Below, in pieces: positions 9,212 to 58,008 of a stretch of DNA of 64,000 nt. The notes under the pieces are model-generated. The model searched no databases. It was not told the origin of the DNA and saw nothing but the letters and a program-made list of their open reading frames with translations. The DNA is from Modestobacter sp. VKM Ac-2985 (lineage in GTDB: Bacteria; Actinomycetota; Actinomycetes; Mycobacteriales; Geodermatophilaceae), in NCBI RefSeq assembly GCF_026967925.1, contig NZ_JAPVBI010000001.1:1387894-1451893 (forward strand), given 5' to 3'. The position numbers were made by a program, and so were the translations under genes. Each line of letters opens with the position of its first letter. The first letter of the stretch is position 1.

Positions 9212-9336
9212 ACTGCGCTAGACCTGGCTTGGCCTAGAGTTGTACCTGAATCTGCCTCCTTCCGCCGCTGCCTAGATGATCTAAGAGAGGGCAGGCCGGA
9301 AATCCCCCGGAATTGCAGGGATTTCCCGACTACCAC

Positions 9337-9407
9337 TTGGCCTGCAGAGCCAACCGACTTGGCCTCACGGGCCAAGTTTCGACTTACTCGTTGGCCGGTA
9401 GAGCCAA
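9337..9407. promoter_or_regulatory. Three 17-bp dyad-symmetric elements (iteron- or operator-like)
   Basis: Three related palindromes at 9337-9353, 9359-9375 and 9391-9407 share TTGGCC, four to five variable bases, then (A/G)GCCAA. Start-to-start distances are 22 and 32 bp. They sit directly downstream of the predicted winged-helix gene that ends at 9413, so that protein is a candidate ligand. Repeated dyads of this kind are seen at operators and at iteron-type origins. Confidence 0.7.
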
Positions 9408-9412
9408 TTTCG

Positions 9413-9793
9413 TCAGCCGTGGACAGCACACGGGTCTGACGACCCCCACGACTTCTGAAAGACGTGACGACTGAGGACCAGACAGCGCACCGTGGACTCG
9501 TCGGTGATGTAGCCGAGTCGCTTCGCGGCCTTGATGGCGTCCGACACGCTGTCTCGTCGGGCCGGTCGCACTTCATCCGTCGTGACGTCGATGGAGCCGA
9601 GCACGTCGGCCAGCTCGCCGGACCGGAAACGCGCATGACCATTCCGGTCGTGCTGTCCCATTGCGGCGAACAGCACTCGGACGGCGAGTGGAGTCACCGC
9701 ACCGTCCTTGGCCCACCGACTCATCTCCCGTTGGGCATAGGCCCCCCACTCCGAGCCGGTAGCGAAGGTGATGCCGCGTTGTGGCGGGCTCAC
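9413..9793 (-). CDS. Predicted winged-helix protein (possible replication or control protein)
   Basis: 126 aa with a GTG start that overlaps the previous stop by four bases (GTGA). Residues 30-95 look like a winged helix: LTPLAVRVLFAAM-like helix, a basic loop, ELADVLG recognition-type helix, then DSVSDAIKAAKRLGYI. The C-terminus contains two Cys. The layout recalls small plasmid replication or copy-control proteins, but I cannot name a family. It lies immediately before the repeat-rich hub, whose three dyads are plausible binding sites. Confidence 0.55.
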   Translation of the reverse strand: MSPPQRGITFATGSEWGAYAQREMSRWAKDGAVTPLAVRVLFAAMGQHDRNGHARFRSGELADVLGSIDVTTDEVRPARRDSVSDAIKAAKRLGYITDESTVRCLVLSRHVFQKSWGSSDPCAVHG

Positions 9794-10167
9794 CGTTGAG
9801 CCTTGGCCATGCGCGCGGCTGCCTCGGCGAAGGTCACCCGATCCCGGTCGCCCGCCTGCTCGATCACGGGCGATGCGTCCTCGCCGGTCTCCCTGAACAC
9901 CCGACGACGCGGGGTCGCCCTACCTCCGACCAGGGCATCGGAGGGGACGTAGGCCCGGGAGTGGACCGTCCACGTCCCGTCCCAACGGCGCTCGACCGAG
10001 ATGGGCACCGGGTGACCGTCGGATCCGAAGTCAGCCTCGATGCTGAACACGGCACCGACCGGTGCTCCCTCGACGTCGGCTCGGGTGAGCACCAGGTCAT
10101 GGCCGGGCAGGACGTCGACCCACCGAGTCAGGTTCCACGGACGGGCGTGTCCCTGATCGGCGGTCAT
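9790..10167 (-). CDS. Hypothetical protein of mobile-element operon
   Basis: 125 aa from the ATG at 10167, chosen because it forms an ATGA overlap with the upstream stop. The first 80 residues read as a beta-rich domain (DLVLTRADVEGAP, VFSIEADFGSDG), the rest is charged and helical. No family is recognised. All genes from 11,031 down to 9,413 are coupled by four-base overlaps, so it is translated as part of one operon with the excisionase-like genes. Confidence 0.6.
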   Translation of the reverse strand: MTADQGHARPWNLTRWVDVLPGHDLVLTRADVEGAPVGAVFSIEADFGSDGHPVPISVERRWDGTWTVHSRAYVPSDALVGGRATPRRRVFRETGEDASPVIEQAGDRDRVTFAEAAARMAKAQR

Positions 10168-10475
10168 GCGGCCCACTCTCCGCCCGTGAGTGACCGCCCG
10201 GGCTCTGCCGGGTCCGAGGGCATCGGGACGTCCGTGGCGGTCATTCCAGAGGCGCTGACGGGCTCACCCGTGCGCCAGCCATTCATGGCGGGAGTGGGCA
10301 GCGCGGCCACCTTCGTGCGACACGACCCGCACGGCGGGTGGACGACGCTGTACCCACACTGAGCCGCCCACGCGGCCTGGGCAGCGCAGGTGTGGCAGTC
10401 CAAGACGGCGAGCCACCGCCGCTTGACCTGATCCCACCGCTTCCCCTGTCGAGGTGACTCAGGTGCGCCCGTCAC
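10164..10475 (-). CDS. Small Cys-rich protein of mobile-element operon
   Basis: 103 aa with a GTG start in a GTGA overlap. The region about 26-53 has Cys residues spaced as CHTC, CGY and PPCGSC, suggesting a zinc-binding fold. The C-terminal 45 residues are Pro/Ser/Gly-rich and probably disordered. Similar small Cys-rich proteins occur beside excisionase and replication genes in actinobacterial integrative elements, but the function is unknown. Confidence 0.6.
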   Translation of the reverse strand: MTGAPESPRQGKRWDQVKRRWLAVLDCHTCAAQAAWAAQCGYSVVHPPCGSCRTKVAALPTPAMNGWRTGEPVSASGMTATDVPMPSDPAEPGRSLTGGEWAA

Positions 10476-10738
10476 AGGGCACCGTCGATCACGAACACGG
10501 TCGGACGCTCCGGGCCGGGCGCGAACACACTGCCGGTCGTCTCCATCCGGCCAGTCAGGATGAAGTCATCAACGTCGTAGATGTCGTAGAGAACGCGGCG
10601 ACCAACCCGGCAGTACGCCGGGCCGATCCCACGGCGACGCCAGGACCGGACCGTGGCCTCCGGCGTCCGGGTGCGGACGGCGACCTCTGCCGTGTCCAGC
10701 CACACGCGGACGGGTCCGGTGCTGTGCTGGGCGATCAC
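10472..10738 (-). CDS. Excisionase-like helix-turn-helix protein (second copy)
   Basis: 88 aa from the GTG at 10738, which forms a GTGA overlap with the upstream stop; a longer frame to 10828 is a shadow. The centre has the MerR/Xis-type pattern: WLDTAEVAVRTRTPEATV, then SWRRRGIGPAYCRVGRRVLY and DVDDFI. Proteins of this kind bind att or promoter DNA of integrative elements. Together with the preceding gene it forms a pair of adjacent related HTH proteins, suggesting duplication or heteromeric binding. Confidence 0.7.
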   Translation of the reverse strand: MIAQHSTGPVRVWLDTAEVAVRTRTPEATVRSWRRRGIGPAYCRVGRRVLYDIYDVDDFILTGRMETTGSVFAPGPERPTVFVIDGAL

Positions 10739-11031
10739 AGCTGACCCACCGGGTTGACGCGGTTGGCGGCCAGATAAGCCAGCAGGTCGACGCGGAGGTA
10801 GACCACGCGCCGCCCCACGTAGGACCACGCCGGACCACGGCGCTCCATACGCATCCGGGCGAGGGTTCCGGGACGGAGCCGGAGGTAGTTGTGCGCCTCC
10901 CGGTCGGACAGGACGTCGGTCGGTGCCGGGTCCGGGATCGTGGTGACGTAGTCGGTCGCCTCGCTCTGAGGCGCGGCGGGGACGAGCGCGATGCCGTCAT
11001 CGCGGGCGGGGGTGGTGTTGCTAGGGGACAC
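10735..11031 (-). CDS. Excisionase-like helix-turn-helix protein (first copy)
   Basis: 98 aa from the GTG at 11031, which has GGAGG six bases upstream; the longer frame to 11106 lacks a ribosome-binding site. After a disordered N-terminus of about 40 residues comes the Xis/HTH-17 pattern: LSDREAHNYLRLRPGTLARM, RRGPAWSYVGRRVVYLRVDL. It is the first gene of the overlapping minus-strand operon and the closest gene to the tRNA remnant, the usual position of an excisionase near an attachment site. No integrase accompanies it in the window. Confidence 0.7.
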   Translation of the reverse strand: MSPSNTTPARDDGIALVPAAPQSEATDYVTTIPDPAPTDVLSDREAHNYLRLRPGTLARMRMERRGPAWSYVGRRVVYLRVDLLAYLAANRVNPVGQL

Positions 11032-37347: not shown

Positions 37348-38439
37348 TCAGCGGTTGGTGGAGAGCACGACGTCGTCGACGTAGGTGATCCCGGTGGCGG
37401 CCTGCGAGTCGCGGTACTGGCCGATCTTCAGGTAGGACCCGGAGTCCATCATCGTGCGGCCGTACTGCCAGCCGGCGCGCTGCACCCCGTCGACCCACGC
37501 CTCGGCGCCGCCGGTGGCCGGGTCGTTGGACATCACGAAGTGCACGTTGACGTCGAACCACTCGCCGAGCTGGAACTCGCCGGCGGGCACCAGGACCTGG
37601 CTCTTGCCCTCCATGCCGACGCGGAACAGCAGGTCGTTGTCGTCGGACAGGCCGAGGGTGATGGCGGGGGAGGAGATCCCGGTGTGCCACTGGGTCAGGA
37701 TGTAGAACCGGCCGTTCTGCTCCTGCTGCATGGACGGGTCGACCATGAGCCGCTGCTGGAACCAGCCCTCGAACCCCTCGGTGAGGGCGGTGGCCGACCT
37801 GTCGGCGGAGGAGGGGGACAGCTCGGAGCGCTCTCCGCCCGCGGACCGGTCGCCCTGGCGCAGCTCGAACCGGGCGACCCGGTTCCCGTCGATGGTGGGG
37901 AAGGTCGTGCGGGTGGGCGAGCCCTCGGCCGCCCACCCGGGGCACAGGCTGGACGACGCCGCGGTCTCGTGGTTCTGGACGTGCACCCACACGCCGCAGT
38001 CCAGGCCGCGCTCGAAGTCGTCGGACCAGAGCACGGTGTTCCCGGCGGGCCCACGGCCACCGGTGGCCGGCTGCGGTTCGACGGTCGGCTCCGGCGCTGG
38101 CTCGGGGGTCGGCTCTGGTGTCGGCTCGGGAGTCGGTGTCGGTGTCGGCTCCGGCTCCGGTGTCGCGGTGGGTGTGGCGATGGGCGCCGGAGACGACGTG
38201 GCGGGAGGCGGCTCCTCCACGGGTGCGCTGGTGGTGGGCGCGGGCGACTCGGTGGCCTTGGGCTTCTTGTTGGCTTGGCCGCGCGAGGCCGCGGTGGTGA
38301 CCTGGACGTCGGACTCAGCGCTGCTGACGGCGGTCGGACGTTCCTCGCGGGCGGCGTTCGCGACGGTGGAGCCGGTGAGCAGGGTGGCCAGCGCGAGCGT
38401 GCCGGCGACGGCAGCCCGGCGGGTGGGGGAGAGCGACAT
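37348..38439 (-). CDS. Secreted heparin-lyase-like protein with Pro-rich linker
   Basis: 363 aa from the ATG at 38439 preceded by GGGGGGT. A signal peptide (about 1-30, cleavage after NAA) is followed by a Lys/Ser region and a low-complexity linker of PEPTPTPEP-type repeats (about 70-115). The C-terminal domain (about 130-363) has the jelly-roll pattern of polysaccharide-lyase family (heparin lyase I type): VLWSDDFERGLDCGVW, GNRVARFELRQGD, GERSELSPSS, FYILTQWHTG. It would bind or cleave an acidic polysaccharide outside the cell; catalytic identity is not proven. Confidence 0.75.
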   Translation of the reverse strand: MSLSPTRRAAVAGTLALATLLTGSTVANAAREERPTAVSSAESDVQVTTAASRGQANKKPKATESPAPTTSAPVEEPPPATSSPAPIATPTATPEPEPTPTPTPEPTPEPTPEPAPEPTVEPQPATGGRGPAGNTVLWSDDFERGLDCGVWVHVQNHETAASSSLCPGWAAEGSPTRTTFPTIDGNRVARFELRQGDRSAGGERSELSPSSADRSATALTEGFEGWFQQRLMVDPSMQQEQNGRFYILTQWHTGISSPAITLGLSDDNDLLFRVGMEGKSQVLVPAGEFQLGEWFDVNVHFVMSNDPATGGAEAWVDGVQRAGWQYGRTMMDSGSYLKIGQYRDSQAATGITYVDDVVLSTNR

Positions 38440-39180: not shown

Positions 39181-39271
39181 TCTGCCGCAGTCAGCAACGA
39201 AGACCTTCGACGGCGTTCAGCGGCTGCTCGGCGCGCCCGGTCACGGGATCCCGTACCCGCGTACTGCCTGG

Positions 39272-39316
39272 TGGTGGGGCGGGTGGGGCTCGAACCCACG
39301 ACCCAGGGATTATGAG
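39272..39316 (-). other. tRNA-Met(CAT) 3' half (attachment site, left border of prophage)
   Basis: On the minus strand the sequence reads anticodon loop CTCATAA (39,316-39,310), anticodon stem TCCCT, variable loop GGGTC, T-arm GTGGG-TTCGAGC-CCCAC, acceptor strand CCGCCCC, discriminator A and CCA (39,274-39,272). The expected 5' acceptor strand GGGGCGG and the D-arm are missing to the right. The 5' part has therefore been replaced by other DNA exactly in the anticodon region, the usual crossover point of tyrosine integrases. The intact tRNA should lie at the far prophage end. Confidence 0.8.
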
Positions 39317-39496
39317 TCGCCCGGCCGGCCGTGCAGGCCCGTCCAGATCGGTGCGAGATCCCCGCCGTTCCGGGCTTCCTGCGGCCCGGGCCGTCCAGGA
39401 TCGTCCGGTGCTGTGCGCGCTTGGTGCTACCGCTGCTGCTACCACTGGCGGCCAGCGGGCCGGTTCTGTCGGTACCCCGGTCTACCGTCGCCCGCC

Positions 39497-39798: not shown

Positions 39799-40386
39799 AT
39801 GAAGCGCACAGCAGTGACCTTGACCGCCGTCGGTCTGCTTGGCCTGGCCGGCTGCGGCTCCGGCGAGGACGAGGAGAGCGTCGCCGAGGCCAGTTCGGCG
39901 CCGGCCACCACGTCCACGGCGGCGGCCACGTCCAGTACGCCCAGGTCGACCGCATCGTCGACACCCACCCCGGCCTCCACGTCGGCGCTTTCGCCGGAAG
40001 CTGAACAGGCGCTCGTGCGGACGATCTTCGGACAGGTGTTCACCAACAACCAGGAGGCCCTGTCCAACGAGTTGGTCAAGTCCAACTCGTTGGTCGAGGC
40101 GCAGACGGAGTTCCGGTTCGACCCGGAGGCGCTCAGCCTTGTGCTGGGCGTGACGTCGACGTACAGCACCGACACTTACGTGCCCGAGCTGGCCTACGAC
40201 CTGGCGGCGGGGTTCGCCCCAGTGTTCTGGGGGCCGGAGGGCACGGATTCGGTGCGGCCGGAGTCGTTGCCGTCGTTCTCGACGACGGTGGATGCGCTGA
40301 CGTACGTGTGTGATGGGCCGACGATGGTGGCCCTGCAGGACCGCGAGCTGAGCCAGGAGATGTTCGTCGAGCGCTGCTCCGTCTGA
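39799..40386 (+). CDS. Phage-encoded lipoprotein (putative lysogenic-conversion protein)
   Basis: 195 aa. Signal peptide with lipobox LAGC (Cys about 17), then a Ser/Thr/Ala-rich linker of about 45 residues and a small globular domain with two Cys near the C-terminus (TYVCDGP, ERCSV), which could form a disulphide. No family named. As it is transcribed away from the late genes and next to the attachment site, it is likely expressed in the lysogen; surface lipoproteins in this position often exclude superinfecting phages (inference). Confidence 0.65.
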   Translation: MKRTAVTLTAVGLLGLAGCGSGEDEESVAEASSAPATTSTAAATSSTPRSTASSTPTPASTSALSPEAEQALVRTIFGQVFTNNQEALSNELVKSNSLVEAQTEFRFDPEALSLVLGVTSTYSTDTYVPELAYDLAAGFAPVFWGPEGTDSVRPESLPSFSTTVDALTYVCDGPTMVALQDRELSQEMFVERCSV

Positions 40387-40403
40387 CCGCGCGAACGCAC
40401 GAA

Positions 40404-40440
40404 GGCCCCGCCCGCCAGCTGGATGCTGACGGACGGGGCT
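40404..40440. terminator. Terminator hairpin behind lipoprotein gene
   Basis: GGCCCCGCCCG pairs with CGGACGGGGCT (ten of eleven positions, one G-T) around a 15-nt loop, 17 bp behind the lipoprotein stop. Confidence 0.6.
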
Positions 40441-40661
40441 CCGTTGTGTCGGTGGCGCTGCAGCGGCCGGCTACCGGACCGCGGGGCGGGATGACGTAGC
40501 CGGGTGGCGGGTGACCTCGCCGACGGGGCCAGCCTGCCGAACGACTGGGCTTGAGCGAGGACAGTGTCCACAGGCAGCAGCCCTGTCCACAGCCACAGAC
40601 CCTGTCGCCCAACCCGCGCGCGGGGCGACGACACGACCCCCGTGGTACAGACTCCCCGAGC

Positions 40662-40958
40662 ATGAGCAAGTTCCGCGTGACGGTGCAGGTCGACATCGAG
40701 ATCGACGAGACGGACGAGCAGACGAAGGCCACTGCCGCAGAAGCCATCCACGCACTGCGGCAGCAGTACGAGGGTCGTGATGTCCAGAACGTCTCTTCGC
40801 GAGGCGAGTCCCCAGAGGTGGCCATCCACGGGCTGGTGCAGCATCCGCCGGTCGTTGCGACCGGCCTGGTGCTCGGTGCCGTCTTCCGCGGGGTGCAGTC
40901 GACGCCCTGCGGCATCTTGCTGGAGAACCTGCACGCCGAGAGCGAGCCGAGAAGCTGA
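40662..40958 (+). CDS. Small hypothetical prophage protein
   Basis: 98 aa from the ATG at 40662; the frame is open upstream to 40551 but without ribosome-binding site. It starts MSKFRVTVQVDIEIDETDEQ and is acidic with a short beta-strand pattern and one Cys. No family recognised. It ends 37 bp before the convergent end of the first fibre gene. Confidence 0.55.
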   Translation: MSKFRVTVQVDIEIDETDEQTKATAAEAIHALRQQYEGRDVQNVSSRGESPEVAIHGLVQHPPVVATGLVLGAVFRGVQSTPCGILLENLHAESEPRS

Positions 40959-40994: not shown

Positions 40995-43900
40995 TCAGGC
41001 CAGAGCTGTGACCGCGAAGTCGTCGTAGGCGTTGCCGGTCCCGTTGCCGGCGGCCCACAGGCCGTGTCGCGTGGCGGTCTGGTTGAACGTCGAGGTGACC
41101 GGCGTCTGGGCGGTGCCGTTGACGTAGGGGGTGATGGTGGACCCGGACAGTTCGACCCGCAGCGTCGCGGGAAGTCCGGGGGTGGTCGCGGCGATGGAGG
41201 CCAGCTGGGAGCCGCCGCCGTTCTCGATGCGGAACAGCTCGTAGTTGTTGGCCGCGTTGCCGCCGTACCGCAGGAGCAGGTAGTTCTCGGCGTCGGTCAT
41301 GCGGAAGCAGATGCCGGACTCACCCGCGCCGAGGGTGACGGTCGCCTCGACCGCGCAGTCCGCGACACCAGCCTCCACCGTCGCGTGCCGGAACTGACCG
41401 GTCGCCGATCCGGTGCCGAGGTACTCGGCGGCGTTGGCGTCAATGCCCCAGTCGCCCTTGGTGGTCCAGGCTCCACCGGTCGGTGCGCTGCCGAGGGACG
41501 CCGAATTGGCGCGGGTGAAGTCGTCCTCGGCGTAGATGGTCGGCCCGGTCGGCTCAGGCTCGGGCTCCGGTTCGACCGGCGGTGCGGTGGACGTGGTGGT
41601 GGCCGTTGCCAGGTAGCCCTCGACGAGGGAGTCCGCGACCCACTCCATCCCAGCGCCGGAGGGGTGGATCTGGTCGTACATGAGTCCCTCGGTCGCAGTG
41701 AAGGTCCGGGAGCGGCGTCCGAACACCTTGTCCTGGGAGTTCCAGACCGCGCAGCGCTCCCACCGGTTGGTGAGCTGTAGGTAGGCGTTGCGCATCGTGT
41801 TGCTGTACTGCTGGGCCTGCGCGCTGGTGATGGATCCGTCGCCGCCGTCGGTGCAGATCGAGTTCGGGATTCGCAGGATCAGGTCGACGTTGGGCAGGTC
41901 GGCCCGGATGGCGTCGATCTCGGTGATCATCCGGGACACGAGGGTGCTCGTGGTGGCCCCGAAGCGGACGTCGTTGATGCCCATGCTGTAGACGATCAGG
42001 TCGGGGCTGAAGGTGGTGACCGGTCCGCCGACCGTCGCCTCAGCCCAGTAGCCCTCCGAGGTGTGCCCGGCGATGCCGAACATCTCGACGTTGGCGGCGA
42101 CGACTCCGGCCAGGGCGCCGCTGGTCGCGGCGTGGACGTTGACGAGCTGCGTCTTGAGCTGCCCGATCTCCTGGAAGCCGGGGTCGGACGTGGAGTCCCC
42201 GAGGAAGGCCACCTTCGCGGTCTCGGGGGCGGTGCCGAGCTTGGCCGCCCAGTTCGGCAGAGCGGCGGCGACCGTGCCACCGCTGCTGATCGGCTGACCG
42301 TTGACCGTCGGCGCGCTGGCGAAGTCGACGTCGCCCAGGTTGAGCGTGGCGGCGTTCTGCACAGCGGCAACAGCGTCCGCATCGCTGTAGCCGGTCGACG
42401 CGGACGGGTCCAGTACGGACTGGTTGCCCTCAGCTTCCACGATCAGCGTCTGGGACTGGGGGTCCTGCTCGCCCCGGTGGTACAGGTCCTGGTTGTAGTA
42501 GCTGTTCGGCGGGACGTCGCCGGACATCCACTCGCCGGTGCCCCAGAAGGTGACGCCGATCCCGGCGGCGTTGAGGAGGTCCAGGGCGAGCTGCCCGAGG
42601 GCGTTCCACTCGGCGGTGGACTCGTCGTTGGGCCAGCCCATCTCGCCGATGAACCCGCGCTGGTTGTGGGTGCTCAGCCAGGTGATGAAGTTGTTGGCGT
42701 CGGCGGTGACGCGCTGGGTGATGCCACCGGACCAGCCGGCGTCGATGTCCTTCTGGTTCTCCCCGGCGTACGTCTTGCCGTTCTCGTAGGTACCCGACCG
42801 GTCGGAGTCGAGGTACATGTGCGCTTCGTAGACGATGTTGTTGGCGGGGTCGGTGATCCAGGGGTCGCCGTTGTTCTGCTGCCAGCCCCAGACGCCGCTC
42901 CAGGCGTCTCCGGCGACGAAGATGGGGCGGGTGTCGCCGGTGTCCCGGATGGCGGTGACGGCTGCCTGACTGTGGGTCTTCCAGGTGTCGGTGCCGGGCA
43001 GGTCGTGGGGTTCGTTCATGAGGCCGTAGGCGGCGGCTGCGGGCTGGTTGGCGAACTCGGTGGCGAGGCGGGACCACACGTCAGCGAACTGGGCGGGGGT
43101 GATGCCGGCGCCCATGACCACCTGAGTGTCGTCGGCCAGCCAGCGGCGCCCGTAGTTCTTCATGTCCAGCAGCACGAGCAGCCCGGAGTTGGCGGCGCGC
43201 TGCACGGCGTCCTTGAGCTCGGCGAGCTTGGTGGCGTCCAGGGCGCCGCCCATGACGGGCTGCACGCGCTCCCACAGGAAGTCGATGCGCACGATGGTGT
43301 GGCCGCGGGAGGCGATGTAGTCGTAGAACGCCTGCGAGTTGAAGTGGTAGTCGGTCTCGACGGTGCCGGGGACGCGGGTCGCGTCTTCGGGTGAGCCGCC
43401 ACCACCGGCGGTGTTGACGCCGCGCAGGTAGGTGTAGTCGTCGAAGGTGAGGGCGCCGGTAGGCGTGGATCCGAAGGGGACGCCGTTGACGGTGGGCGCC
43501 GCGCGGAAGTCGACGGTGCCTAGCGACAGGGAGGTGGCGGCCTCGACGGCGCCTACGGCCGCCGCGTCGGTGTAGGCGGCCGGGATGGCGAGCCCGTCGA
43601 CGACCGCCTTGACCCCGGCGGGCGTGACCGCGCGGCTCGTGTCGGTGCCGGTCGTCGTCTCGGTGTTGGTGGCAAGCTCGACGATGCCCTTGGTCGTGGT
43701 CGAGGCGTCCGACACCGCCGCGCCGCCGTCCGTGCCGATCGGCACGCCGGCCACCGTGGGCGCCTGGGTGAAGTCCCACGCTCCCGTCGGGGCGACGGTC
43801 GCCTCGGTCTCGACCGCTGCGACAGAGGCCGCCTTCAGCGCCGTTCCGGTGTCGGTGGCGTCGTCAGCGACGAGCGCGGCGATGCCAGCGTCGTCCAGAC

Positions 43901-44093
43901 CGCTTCCGGCCTCGCCGATCTTCGCGTAGCGGGCGTCTCCGAGCGCGGGGGTGAGGTACTTGGCGGTCGGGGCCGGCGTGACCCCGTCGACCAGGAGCCA
44001 CCCGACCGCCGCGTGGTCGTCGACCGACGCCACGGACACCGAGGCGCGGGCGTTCCCGAGCTGCGGGTGGTACATGAGCACGAACTGCGACAC
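40995..44093 (-). CDS. Multi-domain tail fibre with GH5 glycosidase and SGNH esterase
   Basis: 1032 aa. Residues 1-215 are a repetitive fibre stalk with LGDARYAKIG and (V)DFxxAPTVxGxPI motifs. Residues about 218-535 are a GH5-like glycoside hydrolase: acid/base Glu361 in LMNEPHD and nucleophile Glu483 in GEMGWPND. A second fibre linker (568-606) repeats the first one (174-212). Residues about 615-830 are an SGNH/GDSL esterase: GDST (632-635), GIND (705-708), DQIHP (807-811). A Pro/Glu linker and a C-terminal laminin-G/concanavalin-like sugar-binding domain (855-1032) follow. It probably degrades and deacylates a host surface polysaccharide. It is the last gene of the late operon. Confidence 0.85.
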   Translation of the reverse strand: MSQFVLMYHPQLGNARASVSVASVDDHAAVGWLLVDGVTPAPTAKYLTPALGDARYAKIGEAGSGLDDAGIAALVADDATDTGTALKAASVAAVETEATVAPTGAWDFTQAPTVAGVPIGTDGGAAVSDASTTTKGIVELATNTETTTGTDTSRAVTPAGVKAVVDGLAIPAAYTDAAAVGAVEAATSLSLGTVDFRAAPTVNGVPFGSTPTGALTFDDYTYLRGVNTAGGGGSPEDATRVPGTVETDYHFNSQAFYDYIASRGHTIVRIDFLWERVQPVMGGALDATKLAELKDAVQRAANSGLLVLLDMKNYGRRWLADDTQVVMGAGITPAQFADVWSRLATEFANQPAAAAYGLMNEPHDLPGTDTWKTHSQAAVTAIRDTGDTRPIFVAGDAWSGVWGWQQNNGDPWITDPANNIVYEAHMYLDSDRSGTYENGKTYAGENQKDIDAGWSGGITQRVTADANNFITWLSTHNQRGFIGEMGWPNDESTAEWNALGQLALDLLNAAGIGVTFWGTGEWMSGDVPPNSYYNQDLYHRGEQDPQSQTLIVEAEGNQSVLDPSASTGYSDADAVAAVQNAATLNLGDVDFASAPTVNGQPISSGGTVAAALPNWAAKLGTAPETAKVAFLGDSTSDPGFQEIGQLKTQLVNVHAATSGALAGVVAANVEMFGIAGHTSEGYWAEATVGGPVTTFSPDLIVYSMGINDVRFGATTSTLVSRMITEIDAIRADLPNVDLILRIPNSICTDGGDGSITSAQAQQYSNTMRNAYLQLTNRWERCAVWNSQDKVFGRRSRTFTATEGLMYDQIHPSGAGMEWVADSLVEGYLATATTTSTAPPVEPEPEPEPTGPTIYAEDDFTRANSASLGSAPTGGAWTTKGDWGIDANAAEYLGTGSATGQFRHATVEAGVADCAVEATVTLGAGESGICFRMTDAENYLLLRYGGNAANNYELFRIENGGGSQLASIAATTPGLPATLRVELSGSTITPYVNGTAQTPVTSTFNQTATRHGLWAAGNGTGNAYDDFAVTALA

Positions 44094-44161: not shown

Positions 44162-47100
44162 CTAGGCCGGTGTCACGTGCTCGGTGATCTCCCGGTCCAT
44201 GACGGCACCGAACTGGCCGTCGCGGTAGTGGTCCTCGCCCGCGACCAGGTGCAGCTGAGTGGTGAACCCGGCGGCGGTGTACCAGTCGTAACCGGCCTTC
44301 ACGCCGTAGATCGACGCCTGGTCGGTCCACGCGGGGTCCTGGTCGCCGGTGTCCCACACGTAGGGCACCGCGGCCTTGTGGGCCGCGGTGTGCTGAGCGG
44401 TGACCTTCGGGGAGCCGCCGTAGGAGATGGCGACCGCAACACCGTCGTCCATGATCTGCGAGGCGTGCGCGGGGCCGAAGAACTCGGTGAGCCACTGCGC
44501 GCCGCTGCTGTAGCCGCCGAGCACGACCCGGGTCAGGTCGATGTTGTACAGCTCGTAGGTGCGGTCGATGATGGACCGGGACCACGCGATCTTCTGCGCG
44601 ACCGTGGTGCCGTCGTTGGAGTTCATGTACCAGCCGACGCCGCCACCGTCGGGGAGTTCGTCGCCGGGGGCCATCGGGGTGACGAGCAGCAGGTTGTGCT
44701 TCTTCGCCACCGCGACCAGACCGTTCGCCCCGGCGAGCAGGTAGCTCGAGGTCGGGTTGTTCAGCCCGAACTCTCCGGACCCGTCGCAGTAGACCAGCAG
44801 GCCGACCGGGCGCGTCCAGTCCAGGCCCGCGGCGAACACGTGCCCGGTGGAGGCGGTTCCTGCGGCGTCGGTGTGGGTCACGAACATCTGGTCGGAGAAC
44901 GAGCCACCCGCGCCACCCGTGGTCGTAGTCGTCGTCGGCTCCGTGATGACCGGATCACCCACGTATCCGGGGGACACGTAGCCGACCCCGACCGACCCGG
45001 CGGGCACAAAGTCACCGGCCGGCGGGATGCCGTTGTTGATGACCCCACTGGTCTGCGGGCGGGTCGGCCACGTCGCCTGGCCGGAGCCGTTGATGACTGC
45101 CGCATTGGTCGAGTTGGTGATGCCGGGCCACACGGACTGCCCGAACGGTCGGGTGCCGCGCGGCCGGATCCACACCTGGTCGAAGACGATGGGCTGGAGC
45201 TCGGCGGGCTCCATCCAGAAGTAGTAGCCGCCACCGTCAGTCGGGGTCAGGTCGTTGCCGATCAGGTTGACCCGCCGCAGCGTGACCTTGTCGATGACGA
45301 AGGTGTTGGTGAGCTCGAACTTGATGCCCTGGTAGTTGCTCGAGCCGGTGAGCTTGTCGAACCGCAGCTCCTTGACGCCCAGCCACGTCTGGAAGATGTC
45401 GGCGTGGTTGCCGGTCTGGGTGCCACGGAAGTCGGCGGCCCGCACGTTCTGGATCTGCACGATCGTGTTCGGCCCGTTGACGGTGATCGCGTCGGCCTCG
45501 GTGCCCACGCCGCTGCGACCGTTGCCGTCCAGGAGCACGCCCTCGATGTGCAGGATGCCGCTGATGTTGGTGGCGTAGATGCACCGCTGGTCGACCCCGC
45601 CGAGCTGGGAGACGGGCTGAGCCTTGATGTGGCCGCCCATGATGACGACGTTGCGGAACCCGGACACGGTGATGGGTGCGGCGACCGTGCTGGGCAGGAT
45701 GATCCGCACGTCGCCGGAACCGCTGATGGTGGTGAGCGACGTGGATGCGGTGACGGTGCGGGTCGGGTAGGTCTCCCACCCGGACGGCGGCGCCCAGGTG
45801 AGCTGCTCGGGGGAGGGCGTCGGGTTGGTCGGCTGGGTGGGGGTGCTGGTGTCGGCGCCCCACACCTGCGTTGAGCCCAGCCACACGGAGAGCACCGGCG
45901 TGGAGCCGATGTAGATGCCGACGATCTGTGCGAGCCCCAGGTGCAGGTTCTGCACGTCGGCGCCGGTGGGATCGGTCGGGTCCGGCTCCGGCTGCGGGTC
46001 CGGGGCGGCGGAGGCGAAGGTGACGGACTCGGTGATCCGCGCCGTGGAGGGAGCGGAGAAGCCGGTGAAGTTGTAGGTGACGGCGGTGTCGGTGAAGGCG
46101 ATGTCCAGCTGCCCGTACTGCTGGGCGGTGACACCGGTACCCGGGTAGGGGCCGGCGGTGTAGGGCCCGCCCTTGTGGCTGGTGGAGTTGTAGAGGGGCG
46201 CGGCCTGGAAGACGGGCACGTTCCCGGGGGACGTGGAGCCGTCGTTGGCGGCGAGGGCGTGCATGTCCCCGGCGATGATGGCTGCGGGGGTGCCGCAGTT
46301 CTTGATCCGGGACGCGATCTCGTTGCGCTCGACGGGGGTCCCCAGCCAGCCGTCTTCGCCCGCGTCGAGTCCACCGGCCCACACGGATCCCTGGACGATG
46401 ACGATCGCCCGGTCGGGGCAGTTGTCGAGCTCGTTGTACAGCCACGCCTTCTGGGTGGCGCCGAGGACCGTGGAGCCGGGGGTGGCGAAGGAGCGGGTGT
46501 CGAGCAGGATGTAGCGGACGCCCTTCCAGGAGAACGCCTCGTAGCAGCCGCGCCCGGTCGGGAGGCTGCCGGTGGCGAACATCTCCCGGTGCATGGCGTT
46601 CCAGTTCGTCCACCCGGTCGGGGTGGAGGAGTAGGTGCCGTCGTTGGTGTGCGCGTCGTGGTCATCGGGGACGTAGCCGAAGATCGGCGTGTTGCGCAGC
46701 AGGTTCCGCAGATCAGCGGCACGCACCTGGGTGCGGACGGACCCACGGAAGGACTCGACGGTCTGCGAGGCGCCGTCGCGGTAGTACAGGTCGCCGGTGA
46801 TGAACGCGAGGTCGGCGCCCCGGGTCGCCATGCCCACCGTGGCCGAGGAACTCGACCCGTTGAGGCAGGACCCGAACACGAGTCGGTGGTCCATTGAGTT
46901 GACGGAGCCGGTCGAGAACGTGCCGACCTGCCCGGTCCAGGTGACGACACCGTTGGAGTCGGCCAGCCCGAGCCGGTAGAAGTAGTCCGTCAGCGGCGCC
47001 AGCCCGGAGACCTCAGGGTGTGCCCAGCCGACACCGCCGCGCACGACAGCACTGCTGGCCGAGCCAGTCACGAGACCGGTGGTGAAGCTGGTGTCGGTCG

Positions 47101-48136
47101 CGGCCTGGATGCGGACGCTGGTGGTGTTGCCGCACTCGACGGCCGCGGAGAAGCGGGTAGGGGTGGCGCGCCCGTTGATGGCGTGCAGGAGTGATGGGGT
47201 GAGCGCCGTGCCGCCACCGCTGGTGGCGGTCACCGTGGCGGTGACGTCGTCGCTGCTGGTGCCGACCGCGTTGGTGGCGGAGTACCGGACGACGTACGTC
47301 CCGGTCGTGACCACCTGGAACGAGAGGGTCGCCGAGTTGCCGATGACCTGACCGGCGCCGATCGGTCCGGACAGGATCGTCCAAGAGCGGGCGGTGATCT
47401 CGGAGCCGTTGTCGTTCTCTGTGGCGGTGCGGGAGAACGTCTCACCGGACACAAGGGTCGTGTCGGCACCGGCGTTGACGGTGGGCGCGGCGGGGCCGGT
47501 GGGTGCGTCGGAGGCAGCGCGAAGGGCCACCGCGACCCCGGCCATCGGCAGGGACGCGGTGCAGGTGAAGGTGCGGGTGGGGGTGGAGCCGGCGGTGGGC
47601 TGGGAGGTGGCGAAGATGAACCCGCGCCGGCCGGTCGCGGTCGCGTCGTCGTCCTTGCCGACGAGGGCGACCCCGGCGGGTGGGGTGAGGGTGCGGGTCG
47701 CCCCGGTGGACTGCACGCCGAGGCCGTAGAGGATGACGGTGCTGGCGGTGACCGTGCTCAGCGCGGGGGCGGTGATGGTGGTGGCGGCGCCGCCGGTGAC
47801 GAAGCTGATCCCGGCCGCGTCGAGCGGGTTGGTCGGGTCGATGCCGGAGACGCGCGCAATCTGCACGGAGTGACCGCCCAAGGGCAGGCCGCTGAACGTG
47901 TAGGAGGCGGGCTCGGAGGTGGTGGCCTGCCGGATGAACAGGGCGACGGAGACGGTGCCCTCGAAGCTGGTGGCGATCCGCGTCCAGCCGGTCTGGGTGG
48001 GGATGGCGGAGGCCATCTCGGCGGACACCTGGGCGAGCAGGTGCTCACCAGCAGCGGTGCCGCCAGGGACGAGGCCGGTGACGGAGTTGCCGGCGTTCTC
48101 GGCGGTGGTCGGGGAGCCCTGGAGTGCGATGGCCAT
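44162..48136 (-). CDS. Giant tail fibre with PhoD-like phosphoesterase, beta-helix and alpha/beta-hydrolase
   Basis: 1324 aa. Order: a beta-rich phage domain (1-210); a PKD-like domain (217-303); a fibronectin-like piece (310-410); a PhoD-like metallophosphoesterase (415-710) with FGSC (421-424), ITGDLYY (446-452), DDHDAH (491-496) and AGDMHA (622-627); a Pro-rich linker; a parallel beta-helix-like region (790-1010); a Thr-rich linker; and an alpha/beta-hydrolase esterase (1080-1324) with nucleophile elbow GYSSG (Ser1210), Asp near 1262-1265 and His1303. It would carry phosphodiesterase and esterase activity at the virion tip. The region up to 710 could be a complete fibre in other phages. 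Five bases separate it from the upstream fibre gene. Confidence 0.8.
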   Translation of the reverse strand: MAIALQGSPTTAENAGNSVTGLVPGGTAAGEHLLAQVSAEMASAIPTQTGWTRIATSFEGTVSVALFIRQATTSEPASYTFSGLPLGGHSVQIARVSGIDPTNPLDAAGISFVTGGAATTITAPALSTVTASTVILYGLGVQSTGATRTLTPPAGVALVGKDDDATATGRRGFIFATSQPTAGSTPTRTFTCTASLPMAGVAVALRAASDAPTGPAAPTVNAGADTTLVSGETFSRTATENDNGSEITARSWTILSGPIGAGQVIGNSATLSFQVVTTGTYVVRYSATNAVGTSSDDVTATVTATSGGGTALTPSLLHAINGRATPTRFSAAVECGNTTSVRIQAATDTSFTTGLVTGSASSAVVRGGVGWAHPEVSGLAPLTDYFYRLGLADSNGVVTWTGQVGTFSTGSVNSMDHRLVFGSCLNGSSSSATVGMATRGADLAFITGDLYYRDGASQTVESFRGSVRTQVRAADLRNLLRNTPIFGYVPDDHDAHTNDGTYSSTPTGWTNWNAMHREMFATGSLPTGRGCYEAFSWKGVRYILLDTRSFATPGSTVLGATQKAWLYNELDNCPDRAIVIVQGSVWAGGLDAGEDGWLGTPVERNEIASRIKNCGTPAAIIAGDMHALAANDGSTSPGNVPVFQAAPLYNSTSHKGGPYTAGPYPGTGVTAQQYGQLDIAFTDTAVTYNFTGFSAPSTARITESVTFASAAPDPQPEPDPTDPTGADVQNLHLGLAQIVGIYIGSTPVLSVWLGSTQVWGADTSTPTQPTNPTPSPEQLTWAPPSGWETYPTRTVTASTSLTTISGSGDVRIILPSTVAAPITVSGFRNVVIMGGHIKAQPVSQLGGVDQRCIYATNISGILHIEGVLLDGNGRSGVGTEADAITVNGPNTIVQIQNVRAADFRGTQTGNHADIFQTWLGVKELRFDKLTGSSNYQGIKFELTNTFVIDKVTLRRVNLIGNDLTPTDGGGYYFWMEPAELQPIVFDQVWIRPRGTRPFGQSVWPGITNSTNAAVINGSGQATWPTRPQTSGVINNGIPPAGDFVPAGSVGVGYVSPGYVGDPVITEPTTTTTTGGAGGSFSDQMFVTHTDAAGTASTGHVFAAGLDWTRPVGLLVYCDGSGEFGLNNPTSSYLLAGANGLVAVAKKHNLLLVTPMAPGDELPDGGGVGWYMNSNDGTTVAQKIAWSRSIIDRTYELYNIDLTRVVLGGYSSGAQWLTEFFGPAHASQIMDDGVAVAISYGGSPKVTAQHTAAHKAAVPYVWDTGDQDPAWTDQASIYGVKAGYDWYTAAGFTTQLHLVAGEDHYRDGQFGAVMDREITEHVTPA

Positions 48137-48140
48137 CCGG

Positions 48141-48698
48141 TCAGCCCTGGATCACGTAGAGGGTGGCGGCGTCCTTCGTGGCGAGGGCGTCGTAGTTGGC
48201 CTGGCTGATCTTGCGGATGTTGAGGATGCCGTCGCCGATGACGTTGCCGCCGCCGAGCGCGGACGGGGGAACAGCCCACACGCCGTCGCCCCGGTAGAAG
48301 GTCGTGTTGTTGCGCGTGCCGGAGCCCTGGAGGGCGGTGGGCCCGTGGGTGTGGTTCGCGTCGGCCTTGCCGAGGGACGCAGCTGCGGCGGACTCGGCGG
48401 CGGACTGCGCTGCCTGCGCGGCCTGCTGTGCGTCGATGGCAGCCGTCAGGGACTCGTTCGACACGGCCGGCAGCAGCACCGACCCGAAGTCGAGGATGCC
48501 GTCGGGGATGTCGGCCTTGAACGCCTGGTGCGCGCCCTTCGGCCCGACGACGATGTTGGGCAGCGCGGACCCGTTGAGGTCGTAGACGGGGACGGTGGCG
48601 CCGCCGGCGACGACGCGCAGCACCCCGGTGGCGCCGATCGCGAAGTCCCCGGTGGACTCCACGAGGACGGCCGAGGGGGAGAAAGTGAAGTCGGGCAT
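48141..48698 (-). CDS. Tail fibre or minor tail protein
   Basis: 185 aa. N-terminal beta-domain, then an Ala/Gln-rich coiled coil (AAIDAQQAAQAAQSAAESAA) and fibre motifs KADANHTHG and FYRGDGVWAVP, ending in TKDAATLYVIQG. These are standard pieces of siphovirus fibres, so it is probably an adaptor on which the two giant fibres are mounted. Confidence 0.75.
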   Translation of the reverse strand: MPDFTFSPSAVLVESTGDFAIGATGVLRVVAGGATVPVYDLNGSALPNIVVGPKGAHQAFKADIPDGILDFGSVLLPAVSNESLTAAIDAQQAAQAAQSAAESAAAASLGKADANHTHGPTALQGSGTRNNTTFYRGDGVWAVPPSALGGGNVIGDGILNIRKISQANYDALATKDAATLYVIQG

Positions 48699-54204: not shown

Positions 54205-57200
54205 TCACCATGCTGGCGCCAGTGCGTCCTGTTGCTGCTGGCGGGTGACTACGGCCCGTGCGATAGCGTCCGCCCCCAGTCCTCGTGCGTCGACTGCGAT
54301 GGACGTCTGCCGGCCCGCGTGCCTGGCGACGATCGCGCCGAGGCGCTCGTAGTCCAGACCCATGCCGCCACCCATGCCGTAGCCGGGCATCGCAGCGGGT
54401 GCGGTGCCCGTCGGGTACACCGTGGCCGGTGCCTCGAAGCGGGCGATCTCCGGACCACGCTCCCCAACCAGGAAGTCCTGGCCGGGCCACACGGGGCCGC
54501 CGTTGGCGCGGGCAGCCACGTGCACGTGGTCCTCGTGGTCCGCCTGCACACCCGCGCTGTACGGGTAGGCGGCGCCGTTCTTGATGTTCGAGCGGTCGCC
54601 GCGAGGGCCGATCAGCTCAGCCAGGGTGGAGCCGTACTTGTCGTGCCACCAGCGCTTGATGTCGCGGAGCTGCGGCTTCGAGTTCCCAGGCCAACCGAAG
54701 TCGGCTGCCAGCCCACGCCCGTGATACCCGGGGTCACCCGGGCGGTAGGCCGAGGTGAGGACAGCGCCCGGGAACGCGGCCTTGCCGGTGTTCCAGATGG
54801 CCTGCCACCCGCCGCCTGCCAGCTGTCCGGCACCCAGCGCCCCGACGTTGGCGTCCATCCACGCCCGGACCTCGTCGAAGCCCTTCTGCATGGTGGCGTC
54901 ACCCGCAGTGGAGATCGGCATCCTGTACGGGGCGGTGGACGACGGTCGGGGCACGTCGGCAGCAGTGACGAACCCGCCGTCGGCGTACCCGTTGTTGGCG
55001 AACTCCTCGATCCGGGCGATGCCCAACCGGGAGGTCTCCTCCTTGGTGAGCACGTACTCGCCGCGGTGCACGATGCCGGCGGGCTCCAGCTTGTCGCCGT
55101 CGCCCGTGTAGCCGCCGACGTCGTAGTTGGCGCCACCTGCCATGCCACCGCCGCGCGCGCGCAGCGTCACAGCCCGCTTGCCGAGGCCCTCGAGGAGGGG
55201 GTTGATGCCGGCGGCCAGCTCGACCCCGTACTGCGAGGCGATGCCCCGCACGGTGTCGACACCGAGACCCAGCTCAGCTGCGATGCCCTCCGCTGTGCCC
55301 TTCGCACCGGCGGCACCCACGGCGGCCATGACCCGCATCTGCGTGTCCAGCTCGGCGGCAGCATCGGACCCACCGCGGCGGGCATCCTCGGCCATGGCCG
55401 TGGCCATGCGGTTGAAGTCCTCGTCGGTGGCGCTCGCCATCGCCGCCGTCTGCGAGGCACCCTCCGCGCCCATGGCGGCGAACGCCTGCCCCACCTCCAG
55501 GCCACCGCGCTGGGTGATCCGGACGATGTTCTCCCGCCAGGCATCCTGGTCGAGGATCTGCTGCTCGAGCTCGGCGGCCCACTCGTCGAGGGAGACGGTG
55601 GCCTCGGTGACGTAGTCCTTCCACGAGTCCGAGGAGTCCTCGGTCGCGTCCGCGGTGGCCTGCGCCTGAGCCTGCTCGGCCTCGGTCTTCTCCTGCAGCT
55701 GCCCCTTGTAGAGGCTGAGCGGCTCGACGAAGGACTCGCCGACCTTCTGCAGTTCACCGCGCCAGTCCTCGATCGCCTTGGTGGCGGACTCGATCTGCTC
55801 CTCGGTCATCCTGGAGGTGTCGCCGAGGAAGGCGAGGGCGTCCGTGCCGGCGGCGACCGCGCCCGGCAGGGGAGCGAGCTGGGTGGAGAACTCGCCGGTG
55901 GCAGCAGCGACCCGCATGAACTCGGTCTGCGTGACCTGCAGGGAGCCGGCCAGGTTGATGCCGTGGGCGTCGGCGAACTCGACGACCTGCTCGCGGGTGG
56001 CCTTGTAGTGCCCGGCCAGGACGTTGATGTTCTGCCCGTACCGTTCCTCGACCTCTTCGAGCTCCGCCAGCTTGTCCTGGTACAGCTGCAGGGACTCGCG
56101 GGCGTCCTGCACCTCACCGGTGACGGGGATGAACGCCTGCTCGAACCAGTTGCGGTTCTCCTTCGACCAGGACTCGACGTGCGGGCCGAGCTCGTCGACC
56201 TTGTCGCGCAGCTCGTCGAGGGAGCTCGTGGTGTTGGCGAACATGGCTTCGTTGCCGTCGGCCTCGTCGATGGCGTCACCCATCGCGGCGATGCTCTCCC
56301 GCGCGTCGTCGCCGGCGTTGCTGAACTTGATGATCTCGGTGATGCCGTAGGTGATGGCTGCGATCGCGGCGAACGGGGCCGCAGCGGTGAGCAGCCCGAG
56401 CATGGCGGTCCGGGCGGCACGAGTGGCGATGGTGAACGTGGTCGTGGCGCCAGTCGCCATGCCCATGCCCGTGACGACGCCGGTCAGGCGCCCGGCGAGG
56501 CCCGTGAACATGGTGTCCAGGGGGCCGCGGAGGGCGGTGAACCCGACGAACGCGGCCAGCGCGATCTGCACCGGGCCCGGCAGGCCGGCGAAGAACCCGA
56601 CGACGTCAGCCCCGGTCTCCACCAGGAACGTCATCATCTGCACGAGCTCGCGCAGGGCGCCCTGGGTGCCGTCGCCGATGGTGGTCATGGTGGCGTCGAA
56701 GGCGCCACCCAGCTTCTCGATGTCGCCCTTGAGGTTGTCCTGCAGGGTGGCGGCGTACTCGGAGGCGTAGCCGGCGTCGTTGACGTTGTTCGCCCACTCC
56801 TGGACCCCGGCCGAGCCCTCCTTGTAGAGCACGGAGGCGGCGCGCACGGCGTCGGACCCGAAGATGGTCTTGAGGGTGGCGTTCTGCTGCTCGACGGTCA
56901 GGCCGGCGAGGCCCTCCTTGAGCTGGCCGGCGACGGAGTCCAGGCCAACGAAGTTGCCTTGCGCGTCGTAGGCGGAGAAGCCGATGGCTTCCATCGCCTC
57001 AGCAGCAGCCACGGAGTTCGGGTTCAGGGCCTGCAGCATCGTCTTGAAGCTGGTGCCGGCGTCGGAGCCGGTGAGGCCGTTGGAGGCGAACATGGCGAGC
57101 GCCCCGGCGGTGTCCTCGATGGACAGGCCGGCCTGGTCGGCGACGAGCGCGGACTGGTTGAGGGCAGCGCCCATGTCGTGCACGGAGCCCTGCGCCTTGC

Positions 57201-58008
57201 CCGCGCCGGCGGCGAGGAGGTCGGCGACGTGGGACATCTGGTCGCCCTCGAGGTTGAACACCGAGAGGGCGGTGGCGCCGAGTTCGGCGGCGTCCGCGAC
57301 CTCCATCTGCCCGGCCGCGGCCAGGTCGAGGGCGCCCTTGAGTCCGCCGTTGATAATGTCGGTGGTGGTGACGCCGGCCTTCGCCATCTCGGTGATGCCC
57401 TGCGCGGCCTCTTCGCCGGAGTACTTGGTGTCGGCGCCGAGGGTGATGGCGGTTTCGCGGAGGGCCTGCATGTCGGTGTCTGTGGCACCGGAGGCGGCCT
57501 GCACCTCGGACATGGCCGCACCGAACTCCGCGCCCCGGAAGGCGGCGTAGCCGAGGCCGAGACCGACGGCTCCGAGGCCGGCGGTGAGTGGCGTGAGGCT
57601 GGTGCCGAGCATCCCGTTGGAGGTGGCGAGCCCGTTGATGGCGGACTGCTGGATGCGGGCGGAGGTGCTGACAGAGGTGGCGGCCTGCGAGTGGGCGCGG
57701 GACTGCGTGGCGGCGGAGGTGCTCGCCGAGGTGGCGGCGGTGGTGTTGGCGGCGACGACGCGACCGGAGGCTGCGGCCTGCGTGGCAGCGCCCGCCGAAG
57801 CCGCGGTGGACGCCTTCCCGGCGGCAGCCGCAGAGGTGGCGGCGTTGGTCTGCTGCACCCGCGCGGAGACCGTGGAGGCGGCAGCAGCCTTCTCGTTGGC
57901 CCCGGTGACCGTGGTGTTGAACGCGGCGACGTTGGCGCCGGCCTTGCCGAGGACGGGGGACAGCAGGTCGCGACCGACGAGGACCGTCTCCAAAGTCCTG
58001 GTCGCCAC
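54205..58008 (-). CDS. Tail tape measure protein with M15-type peptidase domain
   Basis: 1267 aa. Ala/Thr-rich N-terminal helical part, TP901-type core (about 140-480, with SGATDTDMQALRETAI and AALNQSALVADQAG), two or three hydrophobic helices (about 480-560), long coiled-coil segments, and near residues 1040-1165 a zinc peptidase-like domain with SAYRPGD, YHGRGLAADFGW and HEDHVHV. The last resembles M15/VanY D,D-carboxypeptidases. Its length would set a tail near 190 nm at the usual 1.5 Angstrom per residue (estimate from family knowledge). The peptidase part should open peptidoglycan during DNA entry. Confidence 0.88.
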   Translation of the reverse strand: MATRTLETVLVGRDLLSPVLGKAGANVAAFNTTVTGANEKAAAASTVSARVQQTNAATSAAAAGKASTAASAGAATQAAASGRVVAANTTAATSASTSAATQSRAHSQAATSVSTSARIQQSAINGLATSNGMLGTSLTPLTAGLGAVGLGLGYAAFRGAEFGAAMSEVQAASGATDTDMQALRETAITLGADTKYSGEEAAQGITEMAKAGVTTTDIINGGLKGALDLAAAGQMEVADAAELGATALSVFNLEGDQMSHVADLLAAGAGKAQGSVHDMGAALNQSALVADQAGLSIEDTAGALAMFASNGLTGSDAGTSFKTMLQALNPNSVAAAEAMEAIGFSAYDAQGNFVGLDSVAGQLKEGLAGLTVEQQNATLKTIFGSDAVRAASVLYKEGSAGVQEWANNVNDAGYASEYAATLQDNLKGDIEKLGGAFDATMTTIGDGTQGALRELVQMMTFLVETGADVVGFFAGLPGPVQIALAAFVGFTALRGPLDTMFTGLAGRLTGVVTGMGMATGATTTFTIATRAARTAMLGLLTAAAPFAAIAAITYGITEIIKFSNAGDDARESIAAMGDAIDEADGNEAMFANTTSSLDELRDKVDELGPHVESWSKENRNWFEQAFIPVTGEVQDARESLQLYQDKLAELEEVEERYGQNINVLAGHYKATREQVVEFADAHGINLAGSLQVTQTEFMRVAAATGEFSTQLAPLPGAVAAGTDALAFLGDTSRMTEEQIESATKAIEDWRGELQKVGESFVEPLSLYKGQLQEKTEAEQAQAQATADATEDSSDSWKDYVTEATVSLDEWAAELEQQILDQDAWRENIVRITQRGGLEVGQAFAAMGAEGASQTAAMASATDEDFNRMATAMAEDARRGGSDAAAELDTQMRVMAAVGAAGAKGTAEGIAAELGLGVDTVRGIASQYGVELAAGINPLLEGLGKRAVTLRARGGGMAGGANYDVGGYTGDGDKLEPAGIVHRGEYVLTKEETSRLGIARIEEFANNGYADGGFVTAADVPRPSSTAPYRMPISTAGDATMQKGFDEVRAWMDANVGALGAGQLAGGGWQAIWNTGKAAFPGAVLTSAYRPGDPGYHGRGLAADFGWPGNSKPQLRDIKRWWHDKYGSTLAELIGPRGDRSNIKNGAAYPYSAGVQADHEDHVHVAARANGGPVWPGQDFLVGERGPEIARFEAPATVYPTGTAPAAMPGYGMGGGMGLDYERLGAIVARHAGRQTSIAVDARGLGADAIARAVVTRQQQQDALAPAW

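Follow-up and report, generated by a model that had tools for sequence, protein, structure and literature searches.

The window analysed here, a stretch of 64,000 nucleotides from Modestobacter sp. VKM Ac-2985, contains the attL end of a prophage in which a gene at 44162..48136 (minus strand, ATG start) encodes a fibre-like protein of 1324 amino acids (aa). This protein joins a PhoD-like phosphodiesterase, a right-handed beta-helix and an alpha/beta-hydrolase, and is probably a tail component that degrades exopolysaccharide (EPS). The prophage measures 49,214 bases, and a 48-bp repeat of the tRNA-Met 3' end marks its two borders, with attL at 39271..39318 and the other copy at L055:4437-4484 (C1:1476330-1476377); the repeat was undetected in a narrower search and found after widening. 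Its genes include those for an integrase, a large terminase, capsid E, a tape measure protein, a Gp37-like protein, other tail proteins and an endolysin. The fibre gene lies in the tail module, on the strand and in the run common to the tape measure, minor tail and endolysin genes.

The domain order, all on the minus strand, begins with a beta-rich N-terminal domain (N-domain; aa 1-209, 47510..48136), recognized through PHROG 13624 and a protein of IMG/VR locus L056, and a PKD/Ig-like stretch (aa 218-303, 47228..47485; weak Pfam match to PF22352, E 0.045, below cut-off). A PhoD_N-like segment and the PhoD phosphodiesterase domain follow (aa 310-712, 46001..47209). Behind these stand the tail-protein end motif IYIGSTPVLSVWLGSTQVWG (aa 741-760, 45857..45916), a Pro/Thr-rich linker, the beta-helix (aa 779-1058, 44963..45802), a Thr/Gly-rich linker (aa 1059-1073, 44918..44962) and the hydrolase (aa 1074-1324, 44165..44917). 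The sequence-only reading had already placed PhoD, beta-helix and hydrolase together in these 1324 residues, and this is borne out by the PF09423 match, by two folds and, for the hydrolase, by sequence. The N-domain, the PKD/Ig-like stretch, the end motif and a neighbouring second multi-enzyme fibre are additions to that reading.

The PhoD domain scores 35.6 bits against PF09423 (cut-off 27), and the PhoD_N match to PF16655 stays below its own cut-off. An AlphaFold2 (AF2) model of aa 1-761 aligns with Bacillus subtilis PhoD (2yeq) at Z 32.9 and a root-mean-square deviation (rmsd) of 2.8 over 376 residues, which corresponds to the PhoD/purple-acid-phosphatase fold. The metal-site stretch (46256..46876; C424, D449, Y452, D491, D492, N498, D499, D624, H626) contains the motifs FGSC (421-424), GDLYY (448-452), PDDHDAHTND (490-499) and GDMHA (623-627). 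Motif mapping and alignment thus confirm the earlier statement that FGSC, GD, DDHD, GDMHA and the hydrolase elbow GYSSG are kept. In B. subtilis PhoD, the Fe/Ca ligands C180, D207, D265, D266, N271, N272 and D436 have been mutated, and Asp instead of Asn-272 is reported within the family (PMC4223295, in excerpt). The fibre equivalents are C424, D449, D491, D492, N498, D499 and D624, all ligand-type residues; the N/D pair was mapped by eye, with one extra residue ahead of it in the fibre. The NCBIfam equivalog AlkPhosPhoDBac was rejected at 26.3 bits against a cut-off of 1000, and the domain is accordingly called PhoD-like and not that enzyme.

In the beta-helix model, ten-residue blocks reach a predicted local distance difference test score (pLDDT) of 64-97. 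VIA-align matches the model to pectate lyase at Z 17.8 over 225 residues (rmsd 3.3); the other high rows are tailspikes, pectin/pectate lyases and polygalacturonases, a set that does not separate lyase from hydrolase. Foldseek with this model gave no match at E 0.001, probably because of an unmodelled 264-residue tail in the model. Family searches returned no Pfam match for P0003 at E 5, and host relatives of the beta-helix had neither a Pfam match (one relative, E 0.01) nor an NCBIfam match (two relatives, E 0.1). The polar stretches DQR, NHxD and FQxW are invariant across about 50% divergence. The C-terminal domain is assigned to the alpha/beta-hydrolases from sequence only, AF2 pLDDT being below 50 there. 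It has a nucleophile elbow (GYSSG, 1208-1212) and a putative catalytic set of S1210, D1262 or D1267, and H1303, all four residues being identical in 5/5 aligned rows. One host relative matches the esterase_phb models at 31 and 40.9 bits, below the cut-offs of 107.85 and 150, and the fibre hydrolase itself is absent from these polyhydroxybutyrate (PHB)-depolymerase-type matches at E 0.1.

The first half of the protein is of a known phage type. The PHROG 13624 'hydrolase' profile covers aa 10-708 nearly end to end, and tblastn finds matches in 80 of 50,697 phage records, none of which spans 80% of the query; for the best 60 of these 80, the matches are confined to aa 314-759 or 214-273. No match to the beta-helix or the hydrolase was found in the same records at E 0.01. 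Scans for the full-length fibre in viral and genome contigs, for the beta-helix and hydrolase alignments in viral contigs and for the neighbouring second fibre in viral contigs gave no relative; such scans depend on exact short peptides, and distant relatives can escape them. Seven phage proteins that were compared have 650-1240 aa and C-termini unlike that of the fibre. The longest, from IMG/VR L056, shares the N-domain (48% identity, aa 16-303) and PhoD (38%) and has a different C-terminus. Separately, IMG/VR loci L058 and L059 (~120-6161) hold open frames of 2014 aa with a phage-type PhoD near the end.

Genomic context places the PhoD gene within structural modules in three of six phages, namely P1312, Pioneer3 and Phinky. 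The 'phosphodiesterase' of Thermobifida phage P1312 stands directly behind tail genes, and Pioneer3 and Phinky are Microbacterium phages. In Fede, the neighbours are unannotated save for a terminase. Of the six phage proteins aligned, two from Microbacterium phages, Pioneer3 gp38 and Fede gp46, have VGSDQVWP or VYVGSTQVWP at their C-terminus; a similar motif occurs in the fibre at 741-760, where further sequence follows it. Since PHROG 13624 covers aa 10-708 and this end motif of phage proteins sits at 741-760, the simplest history would be that a phage protein of the PhoD type gained the beta-helix and the hydrolase at its C-terminal end.

The two added modules resemble chromosomal proteins of the host family. 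By blastp, the beta-helix is 46-51% identical to such proteins. Excluding the self-match, its relatives (E 2e-91 to 6e-34) include a tandem pair in the same genome (C1:264092-266429), and relatives of 47-51% identity occur in 7 of 58 kin genomes, where G029 has only two partial matches at contig ends. A collection-wide scan yields 13 named loci at 43-49% identity, all in Geodermatophilaceae (Modestobacter, Blastococcus, Geodermatophilus). The hydrolase is 38-41% identical by blastp to secreted-looking host proteins; relatives at 38-46% identity (E 7e-46 to 6e-25, self-match excluded) occur in 11 of the 58 kin genomes and at two sites in the own genome. One of these sites, C3:921298, is two genes from a HGSNAT-type acetyltransferase gene and at most about 10 kb from a glycosyltransferase gene.

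On visual inspection, several of the chromosomal proteins have a signal-like segment and a Pro/Ala-rich linker at the N-terminus, and similarity to one host hydrolase starts at its N-terminal GGSGG stretch, after the signal-like segment. The fibre has no signal peptide by the same visual criterion. Four Cys are present in 11/11 named chromosomal beta-helix rows and none in the fibre, and two hydrolase Cys found in 4/4 chromosomal rows are likewise missing from it. The absence of the four beta-helix Cys would fit assembly in the cytoplasm. The tree, with its long branch, does not support the idea that the beta-helix was copied recently from this host. Because the branch of the fibre is long and lies outside the chromosomal set, any transfer of the beta-helix would be old, and either direction is possible.

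The tandem beta-helix pair belongs to an EPS cluster of the host. This cluster encodes Bac_transf, Polysacc_synt_3, glycosyltransferase 1/4-type and 28-type, Acyl_transf_3, LytR_cpsA_psr and GH5 proteins, together with a GMC oxidoreductase, a phytase and a UDP-sugar dehydrogenase; for genes with no Pfam call, names such as Wzx, Wzy, Wzz and dTDP-rhamnose genes are presumptive. EPS-type neighbours, defined as relatives of the sugar-transferase, chain-length/polymerase-like or LytR-CpsA-Psr genes of the cluster, occur near the beta-helix in 11 of 13 further genomes whose flanks were examined, with loci counted once per genome. Geodermatophilus DF01-2 has a second beta-helix copy (L037) that lacks neighbours of this type.

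A second fibre gene of the prophage points to the same cluster. Located just downstream of the first (40995..44093, minus strand), it encodes 1032 aa with a GH5 domain (42540..43361; PF00150, 137.8 bits) and an SGNH (GDSL) domain (41643..42206; PF13472, 51 bits). The sole other own-genome match of its GH5 at E 1e-5 is C1:276079-277110 in the EPS cluster (54% over 344 aa). Kin genome G021 has two tandem GH5 matches (C8:276284-278933) at 10-15 kb from its beta-helix genes, one with an internal stop codon; G006, G017, G025 and G049 have weaker or partial matches only, and none was found in the remaining beta-helix-bearing kin genomes. The beta-helix genes likewise stand in tandem in several Modestobacter-type genomes, and glycan enzymes of the EPS cluster tend to be duplicated. 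For the N-domain, the sole other own-genome match at E 0.01 is C1:255773-256363 (E 2e-8), also within the cluster. Beside this N-domain protein lies a beta-propeller phytase gene (PF02333, L025:1411-2505, C1:256411-257505), which again hints at phosphate groups in the glycan or close to it. At the thresholds used, all other own-genome matches of N-domain, beta-helix and GH5 fall in a single 21-kb EPS stretch. That two further domains lie at most 21 kb from the beta-helix pair has a naive probability of about 8e-5, counted after the fact.

A second prophage offered a comparison for which the question was fixed before the search: whether its cargo matches the EPS locus of its own host. Among the 58 kin genomes, Blastococcus G041 carries a prophage in which four proteins of the tail tip and of lysis share 52-73% identity with those described here. 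The gene in the slot of 48141..48698 is 71% identical over its first 92 aa, and it is followed by genes for a polysaccharide lyase (PF14099) and an SGNH protein, the contig ending soon after; no match to the fibre PhoD was found in the G041 genome. The two prophages thus have related tail-tip genes and different cargo. The lyase has two other own-genome matches at E 0.01, C7:111885-112613 (57%) and C7:141756-142457 (40%), which flank the beta-helix gene of that host (C7:125203). By gene order, the 40% relative is inside the Blastococcus EPS cluster. The chance level for the nearer match is roughly 28 kb in 4.6 Mb, in a single test. This result, with other cargo in a second prophage, agrees with a mirroring of the host EPS locus.

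These observations are best accommodated if the 1324 aa form a fibre-like tail protein, made by a temperate phage that infects a Modestobacter-like host, and if this fibre degrades EPS with several enzymes, its cargo mirroring the host EPS locus, a reading to which we assign a probability of about 0.6. A known phage module of N-domain and PhoD (aa 1-760) would have been extended by two modules of secreted-enzyme type, the beta-helix and an esterase-like hydrolase. During adsorption, the fibre and its neighbour may meet an acylated, uronate-containing EPS, as suggested by the UDP-sugar dehydrogenase and acyltransferase genes in the cluster. LytR-CpsA-Psr proteins make a phosphodiester anchor, and the EPS could be held by such a bond. 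The hydrolase and SGNH domains would strip acyl groups, the beta-helix and GH5 would cleave the EPS chain, PhoD would cleave phosphodiester bonds, and the phage would then get to the wall. This activity, the substrate, the place in the virion, the order of steps and the fusion history are all proposed from the evidence above. The cargo would suit the host EPS because it is related to enzymes encoded by the host's own EPS locus.

The sequence-only reading had suggested that the phosphodiesterase suits teichoic-acid-like or phosphate-linked glycans and that an esterase removes acyl groups. The present analysis retains both activities as candidates and sharpens the proposed substrate to an acylated, uronate-bearing EPS. 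An acylated, uronate-bearing and possibly phosphodiester-anchored glycan becomes the likelier target because the beta-helix and GH5 relatives sit in the host EPS cluster, and because genes of the LytR-CpsA-Psr, acyltransferase and UDP-sugar dehydrogenase types are part of this cluster as well.

Several observations weigh against this interpretation. Any part of the protein that would attach it to the virion is putative, and the PhoD genes of Samisti12 and Elbi lie away from annotated structural genes; confidence is lowered because PhoD adjoins structural genes in only three of the six contexts. The catalytic residues of the beta-helix could not be mapped, no characterised relative close enough having been found, and in the tree this domain falls outside the chromosomal set, on a long branch (1.7). 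The mirroring is also incomplete. The own-genome hydrolase relatives (C1:1238864, C3:921298) and the two other own-genome members of the PhoD profile (C3:542677, C2:1359026) are outside the EPS cluster, the fibre PhoD as query has no own-genome match at E 1e-8, and SGNH has none at E 0.001. Three of the six domain types therefore do not mirror the cluster, since hydrolase, PhoD and SGNH have no relatives in it, and the N-domain match is weak (27% identity). Beyond this genome, the neighbours in G022 amount to a 35% ABC match with no clear EPS genes, and those in Geodermatophilus YIM 151500 are only N-domain and phytase-like genes. In G041, the relationship is only distant for tape measure (34%) and capsid (29%), and the 57% lyase relative lies about 7 kb outside the presumed Blastococcus cluster.

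Among other explanations, the fibre may serve for receptor binding and not degradation, with a lectin-like beta-helix and hydrolase whose catalysis is weak or lost and a PhoD that is structural only. A fold by itself shows no function, the beta-helix active site is the one that escaped mapping, and WceF, an enzyme of the host side, binds its EPS, which agglutinates it, and is slow to cut it (PMC7949094, in excerpt). All PhoD ligand positions and the hydrolase Ser/Asp/His set are nevertheless kept, and DQR, NHxD and FQxW are invariant over about 50% divergence of the beta-helix, and the receptor-binding reading is considered unlikely. Slightly more doubtful is a mere coincidence of glycan-active folds, in which EPS clusters hold most secreted glycan enzymes and no common substrate is involved. 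The relatives are at most 57% identical and hence old enough for altered specificity, and the own-genome co-location estimate, besides being made after the fact, includes no count of other glycan enzymes in the genome. What speaks against coincidence is that specific families are matched, three of them confined in their other own-genome matches to the one 21-kb stretch (~8e-5, naive), and that the Blastococcus lyase search came out as mirroring predicts.

The least probable of these alternatives is that the gene is lysogeny or lysis cargo, used for phosphate or carbon scavenging or for a biofilm dispersal that frees progeny or nutrients, and not for entry. The fibre genes do lie downstream of the endolysin gene and near attL, the host EPS cluster contains a phytase gene, and the Samisti12 and Elbi genes stand apart from structural genes. 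B. subtilis PhoD has also been proposed to release phosphate from teichoic acids (PMC4223295, in excerpt). Such a role is harder to reconcile with a fibre that shows no signal peptide by eye and with a phage-type PhoD gene that is found within structural modules in half of the contexts, although scavenging or dispersal need not exclude a role in entry.

A broader model, held tentatively and at a lower confidence than the reading of this fibre, is that in temperate phages of Geodermatophilaceae a conserved tail tip is followed by an exchangeable slot, filled with relatives of the host's EPS-locus enzymes, so that cluster and fibre would predict each other. The present fibre, with three putative active sites, would be one such assembly. 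This suggests that phages draw their slime-cutting tools from the same toolbox as slime-making.

Comparable systems are known in part. The EPS-cluster beta-helix WceF of Pantoea stewartii and the tailspike of phage phiEa1h are structural relatives with about 25% identity that both cut that EPS (PMC7949094, in excerpt). The present case resembles this pair in linking an EPS-locus beta-helix to a phage tail-protein relative. It differs in the closer sequence relationship (43-51%), in a prophage residing in the same genome, in cargo distributed over two fibres and in the fused PhoD and alpha/beta-hydrolase, and its activity is a predicted one. In Klebsiella prophages, receptor-binding enzymes that include beta-helix depolymerases and SGNH esterases set the host range of temperate phages, and the excerpt of this source makes no mention of PhoD, phosphodiesterase, kinship with capsule-locus enzymes or lateral gene transfer (PMC13123978). 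The beta-helix and SGNH enzyme types are common to both systems. PHROG 13624 and the phosphatases or phosphoesterases of Streptomyces (Samisti12), Microbacterium and Thermobifida (P1312) phages share PhoD and partly the N-domain, and unlike the fibre they have no beta-helix or hydrolase match. Two cellular enzymes also align with the beta-helix model, VexL (6fi2, Z 16.4) and RbmB (9ozl, Z 14.7), titled in their entries as a capsule depolymerase and a biofilm polysaccharide lyase, respectively.

The sequence-only reading knew of no fibre with this combination, and had proposed a search for the domain order in phage proteins. That search has now been run, and the same order was not found in the phage records and contigs scanned; the claim holds for the combination as a whole and not for its first part, as phage structural modules with a PhoD gene were known before. 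Among the matches listed in open-licence papers, by title and start of abstract, neither the PhoD/beta-helix/hydrolase architecture nor the mirroring is described. In the literature searched, the elements not found elsewhere are this domain order, the closer sequence kinship and the match between cargo and EPS locus; PhoD phage proteins, an EPS-locus beta-helix with a tailspike relative, and prophage SGNH and beta-helix enzymes are already known.

Sequence is a poor guide to the glycan that a phage depolymerase cuts. If fibre and EPS-locus enzymes share ancestry, each helps to identify the substrate of the other. The proposed reading, if true, would provide a testable substrate for the beta-helix family and a hint at the origin of host-specific depolymerases, and a single fibre would show how a phage might handle three types of bond in a coat: backbone, acyl and phosphodiester. 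A natural comparison is offered by the two prophages, whose tail tips are related and whose cargo differs.

Other features of the locus complete the description. A small tail protein of 185 aa (48141..48698, minus strand, PF24243) is encoded just upstream of the fibre, and the tape measure protein of the same prophage at 54205..57993 (minus strand); IMG/VR locus L117 carries a related tape measure. Between attL and the second fibre, two small genes lie on the opposite strand (39799-40958, plus), one of them lipoprotein-like (195-aa open reading frame, ORF), and these are possible lysogeny cargo. At 0.8 kb outside attL, a secreted-looking PF14099 lyase gene (37348-38439, minus strand) encodes a protein 34% identical over part of its length to the Blastococcus prophage fibre lyase. 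Positions 1-11000 of the window have a lower G+C content (56-65% up to 10,000) than the rest (68-76%), and contain a 1132-aa ORF at 1736-5134 and, by look, small DNA-binding-like genes near 10472-11031. This region may be another integrated element.

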